From Parapedobacter tibetensis (GTDB lineage Bacteria; Bacteroidota; Bacteroidia; Sphingobacteriales; Sphingobacteriaceae), in NCBI RefSeq assembly GCF_024704835.1, contig NZ_JAMXBE010000004.1, positions 434,001 to 498,000 on the forward strand: a stretch of DNA of 64,000 nt, written 5' to 3'. The notes under the pieces were generated by a model. The model ran no database searches. It saw only the letters and a list, made by a program, of their open reading frames with translations, and was not told where the DNA came from. Positions 18,984-52,149 of the stretch are shown here, piece after piece. The translations under genes and the position numbers were made by a program. Every line of letters starts with the position of its first letter. The first letter of the stretch is position 1.

Positions 18984-21359
18984 TTATTCAAAATAAGCAT
19001 ACGTAATTCCCTCACCTCCCCTATCTTGATGTTCGTCTTCCATTCGGCTCACTTCTCCGTATTTGCGCAAATAATCTCGGATAAATTTGCGCAAAATCCC
19101 ATCGCCTTTGCCATGGATGATTTTGAGGCTTGGAAACCCCATCATTAACGCCCTATCCAGGTATTTCTCGATTTCATAAAGTGCTGCTTCGGTACGCATA
19201 CCACGTACATCCACTTCAGGACGGAAACTAGCTACATCATTCGATATTTTGGCATGGTGCGATTGCCGCGAAACCTTTTTGGGGCTCTTATTTGTAATAC
19301 GGGCTACATTGTTTCGCTTTTGGACGGTACGGAGCTCGCCCATTGCCAATACAAGGTTATTTTTGGCAACACTGATTACTTGTGCTTCATTGCCCGTTTC
19401 CAACAGTTGAACCCAATCACCTACTTCAATATGGTCATCCGCTACGGGCTGTTGTTTATGGATTTCCGGCTTTGGTGTTTCCTGCGTATGTTTTTGCAAT
19501 TCGGCATCCAATTGTTTCCGTAGCATTTTGGTTTTATCCTTATCCGCCTGGCTTTCCTTGATGCCCGCAATGGTATTTTCCACGAGTTTATTGGCATTCT
19601 TAATAATCTCCTTCGCCTCTTCACGGGCCTTGCTGATAATGGACTTTTTGTTTTCTTCCAAATAAGTCTGTAATGTTTCGTTCTCTTCTTTCAGTAGAGC
19701 CAGTTGCCGCTCTTTTAGGGCGATAGCTGTTTTAGCATCATATACTAGTTTCTTGTCTCGTTCCAAATCAACCAACAATGTATCTACTCGCTTTTGCTGG
19801 ACACCAATCTTTTGCCTGGCGGCATATAAAATGTCTTTGCTCAAGCCTATTTTCTGGGCAATTTCAAAAGCATACGAACTACCGGGTTTACCGGTTTGGA
19901 GGATATATAAGGGCCGCATCGCCGCATTGTCAAACAACATGGACGCATTTTCAAGGCCTTCCGTATTGCTGGCGAAGACTTTTAAATTGGAATAATGGGT
20001 AGTGACCACTCCTCTGACCCGCTTACGGTTAAGTGTGTCCAACACCGCTTCGGCAATGGGTCCACCGAAAAGCGGATCGGTACCCGTGCCAAACTCATCA
20101 ATGAGCACTAAGGTCTTGGCATCTGCATGTTCGGAAAAATACTTCATTTTCGAAAGGTGGGCACTGTACGTACTGAGATCGCTTTCAATCGATTGATCAT
20201 CACCGATATCGACAAACACCCGCCGGAATATCCCTATTTTTGAAGTGGGATCCGCTGGGATAAGCAAACCCGCTTGGACCATCAATTGCAGTAATCCAAT
20301 GGTTTTCATACATACGGATTTCCCTCCTGCATTTGGTCCCGAGACCACAATGACCCGCTGCCCTTCTTCTATTTTTACGTTGAGTGGCACCACAGTTTGT
20401 TGGGTGCTTCTGAAATTGAGCAGTAACAAGGGGTGCCGTGCATTGACCAATGAAAGCGTTGCATCCTTGCTCAACTCAGGCATGTGGGCCTCGATATCGA
20501 TGGCAAACAATGCTTTTGCACGTACAAAATCCACTTTGCTTAGCAAATTGTGATAAGCCAATAACAAAGGGATATGTGGTCGCAGTTCGTCCGTCAAGGC
20601 GGTCAATATTCGGACGATTTCCCGTCGCTTCTCGAATTCAAGGTCGCGCACCTTGTTATTGAGGAGGAACACTTCTTCCGGCTCGATATATACGGTCTGT
20701 CCGGTGGCCGACTCGTCATGCATCCATCCTTTTACCTTGCGCTTGTTTTCGGCTAACACTGGGATGCATAGCCTGCCATCGCGGATCGTGAGGTTGCCAT
20801 CGGCCGTCCAGCCATTTTTCTGGGCGGCTTTGAATACTTGATCGATGCGTTTCCGAGCTTCCTGTTCAGCTTTGACGATGCCAGACAGGATGTCTGCCAG
20901 CAACGGCGAAGCATTGTTTTTTACCTTTCCTTTGGCATCTATGACCGATTCAATGGCCAAAATGATGTTCTTTTCGATGGGAAGGTGCTCAAACAATGCT
21001 TCCAAATTGGGATATTGGCCATTGCGTTCATTAAAGTATCGGATAACGGCAAATACTGTCCTCAAGGACAGCAATACATTGAAAAACTCTTCTTCGGAAA
21101 GGAAAGCACCTATTACCCTGGCCTTTTCTGCATGGGGCTTAATAGGGTATAAATGATCTACGGGAAGCGGGGCGTCATTGGTAAGCAGTTCCTTGAATTC
21201 ATGGGCTTGCCTCAAAAACTTATCGATTTGGTCAAACCTCGTCTGAGGTTGTATTTTATCCACCATCTCCTCGCCCGGTTCACTCAGGCATTTGGATTTG
21301 ACGAGTGTTTTTATGTCCGCAAACCCAAGTTTGTCTATGGCATTATCGGGATAAATCAT
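18984..21359 (-). CDS. mutS2: Endonuclease MutS2
   Basis: The 791-residue protein has the MutS core with Walker A GPNAGGKS at about residue 337 and Walker B/D-loop LIDEFGTGTDP, a long charged coiled-coil (about residues 510-640), and a C-terminal Smr nuclease domain with DVRGMRTEAALYEIEKYLD and HGKGDGILR. It lacks the mismatch-recognition domain I of MutS, as expected. MutS2 proteins suppress recombination and, in Bacillus, rescue collided ribosomes. It overlaps the upstream DUF4296 gene by 4 bp (ATGA). The Smr DLRG motif is DVRG here. Confidence 0.96.
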   Translation of the reverse strand: MIYPDNAIDKLGFADIKTLVKSKCLSEPGEEMVDKIQPQTRFDQIDKFLRQAHEFKELLTNDAPLPVDHLYPIKPHAEKARVIGAFLSEEEFFNVLLSLRTVFAVIRYFNERNGQYPNLEALFEHLPIEKNIILAIESVIDAKGKVKNNASPLLADILSGIVKAEQEARKRIDQVFKAAQKNGWTADGNLTIRDGRLCIPVLAENKRKVKGWMHDESATGQTVYIEPEEVFLLNNKVRDLEFEKRREIVRILTALTDELRPHIPLLLAYHNLLSKVDFVRAKALFAIDIEAHMPELSKDATLSLVNARHPLLLLNFRSTQQTVVPLNVKIEEGQRVIVVSGPNAGGKSVCMKTIGLLQLMVQAGLLIPADPTSKIGIFRRVFVDIGDDQSIESDLSTYSAHLSKMKYFSEHADAKTLVLIDEFGTGTDPLFGGPIAEAVLDTLNRKRVRGVVTTHYSNLKVFASNTEGLENASMLFDNAAMRPLYILQTGKPGSSYAFEIAQKIGLSKDILYAARQKIGVQQKRVDTLLVDLERDKKLVYDAKTAIALKERQLALLKEENETLQTYLEENKKSIISKAREEAKEIIKNANKLVENTIAGIKESQADKDKTKMLRKQLDAELQKHTQETPKPEIHKQQPVADDHIEVGDWVQLLETGNEAQVISVAKNNLVLAMGELRTVQKRNNVARITNKSPKKVSRQSHHAKISNDVASFRPEVDVRGMRTEAALYEIEKYLDRALMMGFPSLKIIHGKGDGILRKFIRDYLRKYGEVSRMEDEHQDRGGEGITYAYFE

Positions 21360-21937
21360 TCTTGTCTTATGCTATCCTGCAGTTTCCGGGCCCTATCAAA
21401 GCCAATATCCTCCAACATCTTGTTTCGCAATTGCTCAAAGCTCACGGAATCCGGCCCATTGTATGTGCTATCTCCTTTATGCATGAACAATAGGTAACGC
21501 TTGCGTTTGAGATCGAGCGAATCACGTTTTATACGATACAGGCTATCTAGCGTCTGGACATTTCTGATGGAGTCTGCAAGCCGTTGCGACCGATATTTCG
21601 CTTCGATTTCCTCCTGCTCAGCCTTATTCATTCCTTCTAGCTTTTTTTCAATGGATATATAGAATTCTTTCATGATATACGGCCTGCTTGAATAGAATTC
21701 AATACTTCGCCTAAACATCGTGGAATCAATACCATACCGGTTGAAGATTGCATCATAATACGTTTCTCGGTAAGCTCTTGCCGAATCGATGGCCATAGAA
21801 GACAGCTCACCATCCGCTAGGTGCACATCCAGCAATATGTCCGACATCTGATTTTGCCGAATCACATCAGTAGGAATTTTCTCCCCGCAGGAGATGTATA
21901 AAAACAAAACCATCATTCCGGTCAAAAGCAGTCGCAT
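21356..21937 (-). CDS. DUF4296 domain-containing lipoprotein
   Basis: A 193-residue protein with a lipoprotein signal (MRLLLTGMMVLFLYISCGEK, acceptor Cys at 17), then the DUF4296 region (MSDILLDVHLADGE and the helical MFRRSIEFYSSRPYIMKEFY), and a highly charged C-terminal helix rich in Arg, Lys and Asp that could form a coiled coil. The family is restricted to Bacteroidota and has no known function. It is the first gene of the operon with mutS2 and mgtC; the promoter at 22002-22038 carries the inverted-repeat element described separately. Confidence 0.8.
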   Translation of the reverse strand: MRLLLTGMMVLFLYISCGEKIPTDVIRQNQMSDILLDVHLADGELSSMAIDSARAYRETYYDAIFNRYGIDSTMFRRSIEFYSSRPYIMKEFYISIEKKLEGMNKAEQEEIEAKYRSQRLADSIRNVQTLDSLYRIKRDSLDLKRKRYLLFMHKGDSTYNGPDSVSFEQLRNKMLEDIGFDRARKLQDSIRQE

Positions 21938-22000: not shown

Positions 22001-22058
22001 GCAAACTTAGACAAATTGTGTGTGAAAAGCAATTTGTCGATCTCTCATCTGCCATTGA
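22001..22058 (-). repeat. 58-bp dispersed repeat, copy at 22.0 kb
   Basis: On the minus strand this segment aligns without gaps to 37392-37449 of the plus strand, 50 of 58 positions identical. Six of the eight differences fall in the spacer of the inverted repeat; the other two are a compensating pair in its arms. Confidence 0.75.
22002..22038 (-). promoter_or_regulatory. Inverted-repeat promoter of DUF4296-mutS2-mgtC
   Basis: Minus strand: GACAAATTG (22038-22030), 11-bp spacer, CAATTTGTC (22018-22010), directly followed by the -7 box TAAGTTTG (22009-22002). The TTG that ends the left arm lies 20 bp before the -7 box and serves as the -33 element. Transcription should start near 21997, about 60 nt before the DUF4296 ATG. 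The same architecture with different but still perfect arms occurs at 37412-37448 and 51480-51516. Confidence 0.65.
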
Positions 22059-22112
22059 GAGAAAAGTTAAGGACAGATGAAAACTTAGACAAATTGTGTG
22101 TGAAAAGCAATT
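22003..22112. repeat. Two direct copies of a 32-bp sequence, 78 bp apart
   Basis: AAACTTAGAC...AGCAATT occurs identically at 22003-22034 and 22081-22112. The second copy keeps the near arm of the inverted repeat but its far arm (CAATTACTC) and its -7 box (TAAGTTTT on the minus strand) have decayed, so it is probably an inactive tandem duplicate of the promoter element. Confidence 0.7.
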
Positions 22113-22380
22113 ACTCACCTCCAGTCAGCTCCAAAGGTGTTCGTGAATGCTTCGCAATTATGGGGGTGTACGGCAGATTGCAGCTTTTTCACGCTGAGCG
22201 CGCAAAGTTTTCCAACGCGAAGACCGCTGAGCTTTTCTTAGCGAGCTTAATCCGCCAACTACGGAAAAGCGTCTCTGCGAACTTTCGTGACACAGTTCTA
22301 TGCGGCTTACCAGTCTCTCATCCGCCGTAGAGAAAAAGGTTATAACAAGATGAGAAACATAAAACGAAATCGTCAAAAAT
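22113..22380. other. Non-coding stretch with decayed GCAAAG-type repeats
   Basis: Together with 21938-22112 this makes a 443-bp gap between divergent transcription units. This part contains text such as CACGCTGAGCGCGCAAAG and CTCTGCGAACTTTCGTG, degenerate relatives of the GCAAAG/CTTTGCG motifs also seen at 23050-23130, 43806-43840 and 54508-54580. No credible gene or clear promoter for the yggS gene was found. Confidence 0.45.
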
Positions 22381-37341: not shown

Positions 37342-37391
37342 TTTCTGTTAAGTCAAATGCTATGCTTAATATTCATCTATAAAGTAAGTTT

Positions 37392-37449
37392 TCAATGGCA
37401 GATGAGAGATCGATAAATTGCATATAAGAGGCAATTTATCTAAGTTTGC
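37392..37449 (+). repeat. 58-bp dispersed repeat, copy at 37.4 kb
   Basis: Matches the minus strand of 22001-22058 at 50 of 58 positions. The flank CAATGGCAGATGAGAGATC and the arms are conserved, while the 11-bp spacer has mostly changed. Confidence 0.75.
37412..37448 (+). promoter_or_regulatory. Inverted-repeat promoter of the aminotransferase
   Basis: GATAAATTG (37412-37420), 11-bp spacer, CAATTTATC (37432-37440), immediately followed by the -7 box TAAGTTTG (37441-37448). The TTG ending the left arm is 20 bp upstream of the -7 box and acts as the -33 element. The gene's ATG is at 37468, giving a leader of about 15 nt. The inverted repeat lies upstream of the start of transcription, so it would act as DNA (operator or cruciform), not as an RNA hairpin. 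Confidence 0.7.
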
Positions 37450-37467: not shown

Positions 37468-38667
37468 ATGCCTTCAGTATCCATAAAAGGTCGCGAAATG
37501 CCGGCCTCCCCTATCCGTAAGCTCACGCCATATGCAGATAAGGCCAAACGGGAGGGCAAACACGTTTACCACCTAAATATTGGGCAACCCGATATTGAAA
37601 CTCCACAGATCATGTTGGATGCCATCAGGAACATTGGTTTCAAGGTTTGGGCATACACGCCATCGGAAGGGACTGCTTCATACCGCGATAAACTGAGTGG
37701 ATATTACAATAAATTAGGATACAATATTCTTCCGGAAGACATCTTGGTGACCAATGGTGGTTCGGAGGCTATCACCATCGCCATGCAAGCATGCATCAAT
37801 CCGGATGAGGAAATCATCATACCCGAACCTTTCTATGCCAATTACAATGGTTTTGCGCGCTCGGCGGGCATTGTAGTCAAGCCCATTCTGTCTTATATAG
37901 ACGATGGTTTCGCATTGCCGGCCATCTCCTCATTTGAGGAGTTAATCACTGAAAAGACCAAGGCTATTGCTATCTGCAATCCAAACAACCCCACGGGTTA
38001 CTTGTATTCACGCAAGGAACTCGAGGCCCTACGCGACCTTTGCCTAAAGCATGACCTTTTCCTGCTGGCCGATGAAGCTTACCGGGAATTCTGCTATGAC
38101 GGCAGCGCGTTTGTGTCGCCTATGCATTTGGAAGGTCTTGAACAGCATGTGGTTGTGCTGGATACGGTTTCCAAGCGGTATAGTGCTTGCGGTGCAAGGC
38201 TGGGCTGTTTGGTGACCAAAAATAGCGAGCTTTGGGCAGCGGCCCTTAAATTTGCGCAAGCGCGGCTCAGTCCACCAGCCGTGGCACAGCTTGCGGCAGA
38301 GGCAGCGATAGATACCCCCCAAAGCTATTTCGACGCAGTGAAAGCGGAATATACTGCCCGAAGGGACATATTGGTTGCAGGACTCAATAAAATTGACGGT
38401 GTTTACTGTCCCATTCCGGGCGGGGCGTTTTATGTAGTCGCCCGTCTGCCCATTGATGATTCCGATCGATTCTGCCAGTGGATGCTGGAACATTTTTCAC
38501 ACGAAAACCAAACCGTGATGATGGCCCCTGCCACTGGTTTCTATAGTTCTACAAATGCAGGAAAAGATGAGGTAAGGCTGGCTTATGTATTAAATATAAA
38601 TGACTTGGAAAAATCATTAATATGCCTCGAGAAAGGGCTAGCGAAGTATCCGGGAAAGAAAATATAG
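37468..38667 (+). CDS. Pyridoxal-phosphate-dependent aminotransferase (class I)
   Basis: A 399-residue fold-type I aminotransferase of the aspartate-aminotransferase family. It has YHLNIGQPDIETP, the PLP-binding NPNNPTGYLYS, ADEAYREFCYDGSAF and the Schiff-base Lys in LDTVSKRYSACGARLGC (near residue 239), and a C-terminal R386-like Arg in DEVRLAYVLN. It moves amino groups between an amino acid and a 2-oxo acid; aspartate is only the family default. Its promoter carries the inverted-repeat element. It converges with cmk, whose stop codon is only 2 bp away. Confidence 0.9.
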   Translation: MPSVSIKGREMPASPIRKLTPYADKAKREGKHVYHLNIGQPDIETPQIMLDAIRNIGFKVWAYTPSEGTASYRDKLSGYYNKLGYNILPEDILVTNGGSEAITIAMQACINPDEEIIIPEPFYANYNGFARSAGIVVKPILSYIDDGFALPAISSFEELITEKTKAIAICNPNNPTGYLYSRKELEALRDLCLKHDLFLLADEAYREFCYDGSAFVSPMHLEGLEQHVVVLDTVSKRYSACGARLGCLVTKNSELWAAALKFAQARLSPPAVAQLAAEAAIDTPQSYFDAVKAEYTARRDILVAGLNKIDGVYCPIPGGAFYVVARLPIDDSDRFCQWMLEHFSHENQTVMMAPATGFYSSTNAGKDEVRLAYVLNINDLEKSLICLEKGLAKYPGKKI

Positions 38668-50720: not shown

Positions 50721-51455
50721 CTACTTCAACACAAACAAATCATCTACCCCTAGTAACCTGCGGCATGTAAATCCTTCCGCATGCGTTGCGCCGATATACT
50801 TACCATATTCCCGGGCACGACCCTCGATATACTCAAGAAAATCGGGTTTTGAAATGTACGTTTCGGGTTCGTTTTCCTTATAGGTGCTATTGAAGAATTG
50901 CGATTGAAAGGCTTTTATTGCATCCACTTTCTTTTCCCAATGGTCACTTATATCCACCACAATATCTGGCTTGATGTAATAGTCCTGGATCAGCTGCAAT
51001 ACCAGTCTTGCACGGTGAGGAACTTGGGTACTGTCCTCCTCGATCGTTTCTATTTTCCGCAAGCCAGCCAAAAAAACCGAATCGTTGATTAGGTCGCCCG
51101 CCCGCCCATGGTCGGGATGACGGTCATGCAACGCATTGGAAATGATGATTTCGGGGCGGTATTTACGTATAACCTGGATAACTTTCAACTGATGGGATTC
51201 GTCATTTCTAAAAAACCCATCGCGCAAACCCAAGTTTTCCCGCACTGACAGGCCGAGTATACGAGCCGCATCAAGTGCCTCCATCCCTCTTGTCTCGGGT
51301 GTACCACGGGTGCCCAGTTCTCCACGAGTCAAGTCAACGACTCCAACTTTCCGCCCCATGGACACATGCTTGAGGATGGTGCCGCCACAACCCAGTTCGG
51401 CATCATCAGGATGCACAGCTATCACTAATATATCCAGTTTGTTATTTTCCTTCAT
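50721..51455 (-). CDS. bshB1: Bacillithiol biosynthesis deacetylase BshB1
   Basis: The 244-residue LmbE/PIG-L zinc deacetylase removes acetyl from GlcNAc-malate in the synthesis of the low-molecular-weight thiol bacillithiol. It has VIAVHPDDAELGCGGT (zinc-binding HPDD), the family LTRGELGTRGTPETRGMEAL and ALHDRHPDHGRAGDLI with another zinc His. Length is typical. Its promoter carries the inverted-repeat element, so it may share a regulator with the aminotransferase and mutS2 operons. bshA and bshC are not in the window. Confidence 0.93.
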   Translation of the reverse strand: MKENNKLDILVIAVHPDDAELGCGGTILKHVSMGRKVGVVDLTRGELGTRGTPETRGMEALDAARILGLSVRENLGLRDGFFRNDESHQLKVIQVIRKYRPEIIISNALHDRHPDHGRAGDLINDSVFLAGLRKIETIEEDSTQVPHRARLVLQLIQDYYIKPDIVVDISDHWEKKVDAIKAFQSQFFNSTYKENEPETYISKPDFLEYIEGRAREYGKYIGATHAEGFTCRRLLGVDDLFVLK

Positions 51456-51479: not shown

Positions 51480-51516
51480 CAAACTTAGATAACTTGCCGT
51501 TTATATACAAGTTATC
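51480..51516 (-). promoter_or_regulatory. Inverted-repeat promoter of bshB1
   Basis: On the minus strand GATAACTTG (51516-51508), 11-bp spacer, CAAGTTATC (51496-51488), directly followed by TAAGTTTG (51487-51480). Compared with the site at 37412, an arm position has changed from A to C and its partner from T to G, so the symmetry is kept. The flank of the 58-bp repeat is absent. The leader before ATG 51455 is about 20 nt. Confidence 0.7.
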
Positions 51517-51525
51517 GGTTCCACA

Positions 51526-52149
51526 TCAAAAATATCGGTAAGTGGGTCGTTCGAGGCTGCGGATTATGTTTTCAATCTCGAAATCCTCTTCCGGATTATA
51601 GGTGTTTTTGAGGTTGTGTCCGAATACCCTTGCAACGGATTGGTAAAAAAAGGCGGTGACACCACCTCGCAGTTCGCGCACAACTTCATAACTGGAATTT
51701 CCAGTCTGGCGGTCGATAAGCTTGATCAATATTTCTCCCTGCGATATGGTGAGGTTCTTCACTTCCCTATTGAACATGTCTTTGATTTCCTTTTCACAGT
51801 CCTTTACCAATCGCTTTTGTTTACGTTTATTAGCGGTTACGGCTAAATCACGGTATAGCTGCTGATACCTGTTTTGTGCAAATTTTGCATAAGGCAGTAC
51901 CTTGATTACATTATACCGCAATCGCATATACCGGGCTTTGTCTTCTGGGCTTTTGAAAATACGTCTCCGCGTTACCTCCACCTCAGGGATCAGCATCCAG
52001 GGCACAAATTCTCCATTTACCACAGTAGTAGGTACCCTAATACGCTGTGGCTGCTGGGCTGTAGACATCTGCGCAATGGTGTCTTGCGCCGCAACTTCGC
52101 CCACAGGTAAAAAAAAACTCAAAAAAAACAACAGCCTTAGATGGCCCAT
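51526..52149 (-). CDS. DUF4294 domain-containing exported protein
   Basis: A 207-residue protein with a signal peptide (LLFFLSFFLPVGEVAAQ), followed by the DUF4294 region (PWMLIPEVEVTRRRIFKSPEDKARYMRLRYNVIKVLPYAKFA), and two Lys/Arg-rich helical parts (TANKRKQKRLVKDCEKEIKDM). The family occurs in Bacteroidota and is of unknown role. It is divergent from relA/spoT. No promoter was confidently identified. Confidence 0.82.
   Translation of the reverse strand: MGHLRLLFFLSFFLPVGEVAAQDTIAQMSTAQQPQRIRVPTTVVNGEFVPWMLIPEVEVTRRRIFKSPEDKARYMRLRYNVIKVLPYAKFAQNRYQQLYRDLAVTANKRKQKRLVKDCEKEIKDMFNREVKNLTISQGEILIKLIDRQTGNSSYEVVRELRGGVTAFFYQSVARVFGHNLKNTYNPEEDFEIENIIRSLERPTYRYF

Follow-up and report, generated by a model that had tools for sequence, protein, structure and literature searches.

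Three promoter regions in the 64-kb window (the whole stretch of Parapedobacter tibetensis DNA analysed here) carry a perfect inverted repeat fused to one and the same putative -7 box, and the question is whether these repeats belong to the host as an operator or have come from elsewhere. The original prediction favoured an operator for a dimeric regulator or a cruciform. Inspection of the sites at 37412-37448 (+), 51480-51516 (-) and 22002-22038 (-) confirms their positions, the perfect 9-bp arms, the 11-nt spacers and the gapless junction to TAAGTTTG; at 37412 the arms even reach 10 bp. The compensated substitutions at two arm positions are genuine, so that the covariation of the arms is borne out. 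The spacers are indeed equal in length, but their description as unrelated in sequence does not hold, since CATATAAGAGG at 37412 resembles TATATAAACGG at 51480. Allowing up to two mismatches, the window contains the tail CAANTTNTCTAAGTTTG four times, where shuffled sequence gave a mean of 0.15 and none of 100 shuffles reached four. A genome-wide scan (5.98 Mb in 85 contigs) likewise found the pattern above chance, with nine exact tails versus none for the reversed pattern, together with 64 versus 11 occurrences of TCTAAGTTTG and 43 versus 0 of TTTATCTAAGTTTG, the contrast being weaker (140 versus 57) at 18 letters with three mismatches.

The palindrome is part of something larger. Six of the nine exact tails belong to longer units, whose right ends they form and which have a second hairpin and the linker AGAGAYC; in the window this 5′ hairpin, which had been overlooked, is found at 37374-37404 and inside 22003-22079, and a near copy at 22080-22116 (-) had been missed as well. 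The general plan, in units of 58-160 bp, consists of hairpin 1 at the left end (C..CT / AG..G), the linker, hairpin 2 and the end TAAGTTT. We have built a covariance model, R1, from an alignment of 14 such units, and it matches all three window sites. The best match is a complete 74-bp unit at 37374..37447 (+, 64.4 bits, E 1.4e-12), located upstream of a gene for a PLP-dependent aminotransferase (37468..38667, +; NF005744, PF00155). Its hairpin 1 (CATCT .. AGATG, 37374..37404, +) is present in the minimum-energy DNA fold and the family alignment but not in the centroid fold, and its hairpin 2 (37412..37440, +), visible in both sequence and DNA fold, is the palindrome described originally. A putative -33 TTG lies at 37418..37420 (+), 20 nt before a -7 box that appears to be rebuilt from the unit's TAAGTTT and a host G (37441..37448, +).

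The second match (22003..22079, -; 53.5 bits, E 4.5e-10), with the left flank CTAAGTTTT, lies upstream of the DUF4296 protein gene (21356..21937, -), which is followed by mutS2 and mgtC (PF14129, TIGR01069 and PF02308, respectively). Its -7 box TAAGTTTG occupies 22002..22009 (-), and the unit sits directly behind the right end of an older one, of which the right part remains at 22080..22116 (-) with the end AATTTGTCTAAGTTTT and a weak R1 match (22081-22139, E 1.1). The third site, at 51480..51516 (-) upstream of bshB1 (50721..51455, -; TIGR04001), appears to be an eroded or truncated unit made of hairpin 2 and TAAGTTTG; no convincing hairpin 1 is seen there, and the left part of its R1 match (51481-51556, -; E 5e-4) overlaps the reading frame upstream. 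At the corresponding place, plain -7 boxes such as TATCTTTG occur in some congeners. By their R1 matches, all three window sites represent a single dispersed element.

Close fits between filled and empty sites indicate that this element is mobile. At the aminotransferase promoter, the host -7 box is parted from its G by the insertion, its left half TAATATT lying at 37367..37373 (+), so that P. tibetensis has TAATATT[74 bp]G where eight of eight congeners have TAATATT|G with nothing inserted (read TAATATTG, without a unit). No target duplication is recognisable, since the change from TAATATT|G to TAATATT..TTT|G would permit a duplication of TT at most. A second locus, L248 of congener G004, reads CTATATTT[104 bp]GTATATCC, while the empty form TATATTTGTATA is found in P. 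tibetensis, G001 and G005 and TATCTTTGTAT in G002 and G003; the counterparts in G006, G007 and G008 are other TAAGTTTG-type promoters that have no hairpin 1. A third, L190 of G006, reads GTAAGTTT[127 bp]GCACAAAAC versus the empty GTAAGTTTGCACAAAAC in G004 and G007. One further pair, L232 of G003 (filled) and L285 of G007 (empty), differs in the two bases to the right of the junction. Genome comparison places the unit inside the predicted host -7 box TAnnTTT^G, where it parts the TTT from the G.

G006 and G007 are sisters with a support of 100 in a tree from three proteins, so that a unit was gained or lost at the DUF4296 promoter between sister species. Units or remnants are also present there in P. 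tibetensis, G005, G001 and perhaps G008, G003 being ambiguous, and the history of the site, as read from these genomes, is one of repeated gain or precise loss. In G008, 11 abutting 74-bp units stand before one gene, and seemingly the same gene is preceded by two abutting units in G004 and by one partial and one full unit in G006. These arrays in three species, at seemingly one orthologous gene (L257:1923-2736; L276:1429-1576, -; L281:1455-1527, -, and upstream), look like a variable-number promoter repeat. Abutting and nested copies fit insertion of the element into its own -7 box, and slippage could lengthen the arrays too. Taken together, the sites are probably the right ends of a non-autonomous mobile element that enters host -7 boxes and appears to replace the promoter.

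Of the eight loci found for BshB1 relatives, the five at 79-84% identity belong to Parapedobacter species, and the remaining three are distant. R1 matches occur in all nine genus genomes, P. tibetensis included, with 2-35 per genome: 35 in P. tibetensis, 23 in G008, 19 in G006, 18 in G004, 12 each in G007 and G003, eight in G005, four in G001 and two in G002. A few reverse-strand echoes of the palindrome are counted here, as are, for G008, the 11 units of the single array. At E <= 1e-4 with stricter filters, matches are found in 18 of 101 family genomes, belonging to five of 25 genera including Parapedobacter itself. As far as R1 can tell, the element family is one of Parapedobacter and some relatives. 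No plasmid or phage sequence matched the unit, and viral contigs gave no match to two exact words from hairpin 1; in Rfam 15, nothing scored above the gathering score for the window and four loci.

The flanks of the units can be examined without circularity, because R1 covers no flank and the TAnnTTT signal at the junction is hence not built in. The fetched loci contained 137 R1 matches (122 + 15). Removal of nine echoes on the reverse strand, a duplicate locus and an overlapping match left 126 units; 122 of these are distinct, 12 of them directly behind another unit's end, leaving 110 non-tandem left flanks. The composition of these flanks is T 68%, A 68%, n, n, T 80%, T 88% and T 86%, and TAnnTTT is exact in 54 of the 110, the other 56 differing from it. 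In 45 of the 96 non-seed, non-tandem genus units, TAnnTTT stands at the junction itself, and no other offset between -15 and +15 has it in more than two of the 96; for other genera the figure at the junction is 10 of 14 fetched non-tandem units. The background is 581 of 339358 positions. On the other side, 113 of the 122 distinct units end in TAAGTTT, with G as the next base in 94 of these, and G is the right-flank base in 82% of all 122.

This arrangement gives the units a promoter-like layout, as originally predicted from the TTG 20 nt ahead of TAAGTTTG and the position upstream of genes. Promoters for sigma-ABfr, according to the parts of PMC6847099 drawn on here, have the consensus -33 TTTG and -7 TANNTTTG, and the units agree with this layout, having a -33 TTG and a -7 TAnnTTTG about 20 nt apart. 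With the G008 array collapsed to one unit (116 units, 107 ending in TAAGTTT), TTG is found 20 nt before TAAGTTT in 80 of the 107 and 19 nt before it in 12; by eye, it lies in the right arm of long-stem units and in the left arm of short-stem ones, with equal spacing. Since the unit ends in TAAGTTT, the host G would complete a new -7 box. An ORF of at least 60 aa starts within 150 nt downstream of 108 of the 122 units (median distance 24 nt; 14 without), and the reverse-strand upstream control also gives a high figure, 72 of 122, so that proximity to genes by itself is weak proof and is taken as supportive only. The promoter word is not confined to units. In P. tibetensis, 43 of the 64 TCTAAGTTTG sites have no recognisable unit; 32 of these 43 keep TTG at 19 or 20 nt, and just one has a perfect arm of at least 7 bp. 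From their sequences, they are either relic units or ordinary promoters. A seeming tRNA gene has the promoter GGACAATTTTAGCTAAGTTTG without the palindrome in two species (G003:C20 near 72088, L198, and the G005 synteny region), therefore TAAGTTTG promoters exist without a unit too. In the -7 boxes of F. johnsoniae, as presented in that same portion of PMC6847099, G at -9 is nearly absent, and the G of TAAG may therefore serve the element rather than the polymerase.

In the seed alignment of 14 units, 89% of the cells in the two hairpins pair, a figure that is partly a selection effect, R1 also favouring pairing and a fixed layout. For 13 of the 14 seed units, the selecting script demanded exact hairpin-1 arms and a TTTC or ATTC start, with hairpin 2 no criterion; hairpin 1 is therefore excluded as independent evidence. 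Changes on both sides are seen in 16 of 32 pairs of the seed alignment versus a shuffled mean of 8.2, with none of 500 shuffles reaching this, and in 10 of the 23 pairs of the hairpin-2 helix. Minimum-energy DNA folds of six units contain hairpin 2 in all six and hairpin 1 in four, with z-scores from -1.85 to -8.61. Perfect hairpin-2 arms of at least 6 bp ending exactly at TAAGTTT are present in 59 of 107 units versus 37 of 2320 random placements; this excess is inflated because R1 favours pairing, which does not explain the variety of the perfect arms. Arms of at least 9 bp come in 19 different 9-nt sequences and span 9 to 23 bp, and loop lengths vary widely too. Hairpin-2 pairing was no more frequent in units with an intact TAnnTTT flank (22 of 51) than in the others (22 of 50), so no decay of pairing with age was seen in this comparison.

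Since the units described so far (subfamily A) stand upstream of the start site that each would provide, an effect of the pairing within the mRNA from this promoter is excluded, which supports the earlier suggestion of a role in DNA; among such roles, the folding of a single strand during transposition seems the likeliest. Inspection of the alignment shows no terminal inverted repeat, the left C..CT and the right TAAGTTT not being inverted copies and hairpins 1 and 2 being separate. Gauged from their length (58-160 bp) alone, the units are of non-autonomous size, and no autonomous parent was noticed. Some carry extra modules, either CTGCGAAGCATTCATGAGTACC-like between the hairpins (L002, L027, L051, L190) or CCTCCGCCAATTGGCGGAGG-like palindromes further in (L001, L025, L045), and these modules look like nested insertions.

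In addition to subfamily A, we have searched for units with the variant end ACATCTCGGTTT in place of TTTATCTAAGTTT. With up to one mismatch, 67 places were found in nine genomes versus 28 for the reversed pattern, and most of the variant places are therefore chance. A structural filter over loci including all 67 left nine units that have the two-hairpin plan and this end (L220:7152-7240, -; L334, L336, L338, L340, L342, L343, L358 and L398), which we call subfamily B; the longer variant L349 did not pass. In gene orientation, six of the nine units have ATG as the preceding flank, and the unit's own terminal ATG opens an ORF of 222-572 aa in five. One filled/empty pair is available, G007 versus G006. 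As a lead, subfamily B seems to enter start codons (ATG^AAA) and to end in a new ATG. At the topA start of G007, two tandem units of yet another form (L221:10188-10350, -, on G007:C35; AAACCT..CAT..TTATTTTGAATG) are absent from G006, and they are possibly a third, start-codon subfamily C.

How such a unit may move can be outlined from these observations. The element would enter TAnnTTT^G of a host -7 box and bring TTG-N20-TAAGTTT with it; the host G would complete a promoter of the sigma-ABfr type, and the gene would stay expressed, its split promoter having been replaced by the element's. We tentatively suppose, at somewhat below even chances, that the element moves as a folded strand of single-stranded DNA, recognised by pairing rather than by sequence, following a logic like that of IS200/IS605; the arms would then covary because the folded strand is recognised through pairing. 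The linker may be a guide, as in the folds of L024, L035 and L048 its AGA could pair with the target TTT and AGAY with the right-end GTTT. IS200/IS605-derived elements and the REP/RAYT systems have hairpins near both ends and a left-flank target resembling the right end, features that are likewise seen here; in contrast to them, the arms vary freely in sequence and an intact Y1 transposase was not detected in the nine genus genomes. Y1_Tnp (PF01797, E <= 0.001) is matched in one of the nine, with three internal stops, and in none of the other eight. This broken remnant (L226, G000:C34:46216-46512), the sole PF01797 match of the genus, lies between two CCG(T/C)AGCAGAGCTGCGAGG words and, by eye, adjoins an XerD-like reading frame; no unit was seen by eye in the 1.6 kb inspected at this locus. 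A Y1/RAYT enzyme as the present mobiliser is rejected, the single genus match being broken.

The absence of a detectable Y1 transposase from eight of nine genomes suits an alternative in which a circular unit (TAAGTTT-CMKCT) recombines as double-stranded DNA with TAnnTTTG, catalysed by a CTnDOT-like tyrosine recombinase or one of the IS110 type. The CTnDOT core word GTANNTTTGC resembles a -7 box, the word TAnnTTT is common to element end and target, and the tandem arrays are cassette-like, all of which would fit such a recombination. By itself, it leaves unexplained the upkeep of two hairpins with covarying arms, and we regard it as less likely than not.

A more improbable explanation is that the element inserts at any TTT and that only insertions rebuilding a promoter survive, the specificity thus being one of survivorship. 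Insertion elsewhere within a promoter could be lethal, 14 of the 122 units are not followed by an ORF start within 150 nt, and subfamily B, which sits at start codons, has just TTT^ in common with subfamily A. The left flank, however, is superfluous after insertion, and yet T and A at -7 and -6 are each kept at 68% and TAnnTTT peaks at one offset.

It is very hard to maintain that the palindrome, overlapping the site of RNA polymerase, forms a regulatory cruciform or is bound by a dimeric regulator as its operator. This view can draw on the perfect or near-perfect promoter palindromes at one orthologous place in several species (DUF4296 in P. tibetensis, G001 and, with one mismatch, G005). Against it, the units are mobile, as seen from the precise presence and absence between close species, the tandem and nested copies and the patchy distribution, so that the proposed regulon is not upheld; no functional link among the downstream genes was noticed; the wide variation of stem and loop lengths, with perfect arms from 9 bp up to 23 bp, leaves no fixed geometry; and the unit-less TCTAAGTTTG sites described above mostly keep their TTG while almost all lack the arms. 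The palindrome is better read, from these comparisons, as the element's hairpin than as a host operator. Equally remote is a spread with no transposition, by local duplication and gene conversion of a strong promoter type with palindromes perfected by template switching, a process in which compensating changes arise without selection: slippage would fit the identical tandem units and the near-identical neighbouring copies in the window, but not the dispersed copies at unrelated genes, the sharp ends and the intact empty sites in congeners.

The mobile element put forward here has partial parallels among known systems. The Correia repeat enclosed elements of Neisseria are likewise short palindromic mobile elements found upstream of genes, and the sections of PMC2649163 drawn on here describe them as bringing promoters, with a mobiliser that is undetermined and a target that is mostly TA; a -35 and an incomplete -10 lie in one end, some insertions complete the -10, and in strain FA1090 the two kinds of potential promoter number 18 and 15. 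Unlike the Parapedobacter units, whose target is the whole box TAnnTTT^G and which consist of two hairpins in series with no terminal inverted repeat seen, most Correia copies make no promoter. Identity with Correia elements is rejected on the target, TAnnTTT^G versus TA. BrickBuilt, a MITE of Porphyromonas gingivalis, is also from the Bacteroidota, has tandem repeats and was active as a promoter when tested with an E. coli reporter, but it contains a 23-nt minisatellite, IS5-like terminal repeats and variable target duplications, and it lies 49-591 nt from coding sequences; the portion of PMC4596501 consulted does not describe it as sitting in -7 boxes. Relative to the sigma-ABfr promoters of Bacteroidota, with which the units share the -33 TTTG and -7 TANNTTTG pattern (PMC6847099, in the part cited above), the differences are that the promoter would arrive with a mobile unit and that a G at -9, as here, is unusual in F. 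johnsoniae. Targeting of a whole -7 or -10 box is described in none of the Correia, BrickBuilt and MITE-review texts, as far as the parts used extend; the main text of the prokaryotic MITE review (PMC10969869) does not contain 'Bacteroid', 'start codon' or 'IS200', and that of the genus paper (PMC7500135) has no occurrence of 'transpos' or 'insertion sequence'. A search of titles and abstracts did not find such an element described.

The repeat is thus real and surprising, and it appears to be a mobile element invading promoters rather than an operator. Promoter replacement by mobile DNA has been known so far as an accident of insertion; the Parapedobacter element appears to aim at the core box of the promoter and to repair it, and many genes per genome may use grafted promoters. 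Promoter turnover in Bacteroidota could then be studied as a natural experiment, and the units would offer the phylum ready-made promoters and a path to a site-specific mobiliser with a short target. The start-codon sister subfamily suggests a general strategy of harmless insertion. It is quite possible, though less likely than not, that these subfamilies form a superfamily of folded-single-strand mobile elements which target and restore host expression signals (-7 boxes for A, start codons for B, and perhaps also for C) by means of a non-Y1 enzyme. If so, insertion near a gene would rarely be harmful, and the gene's promoter or start would become the element's.
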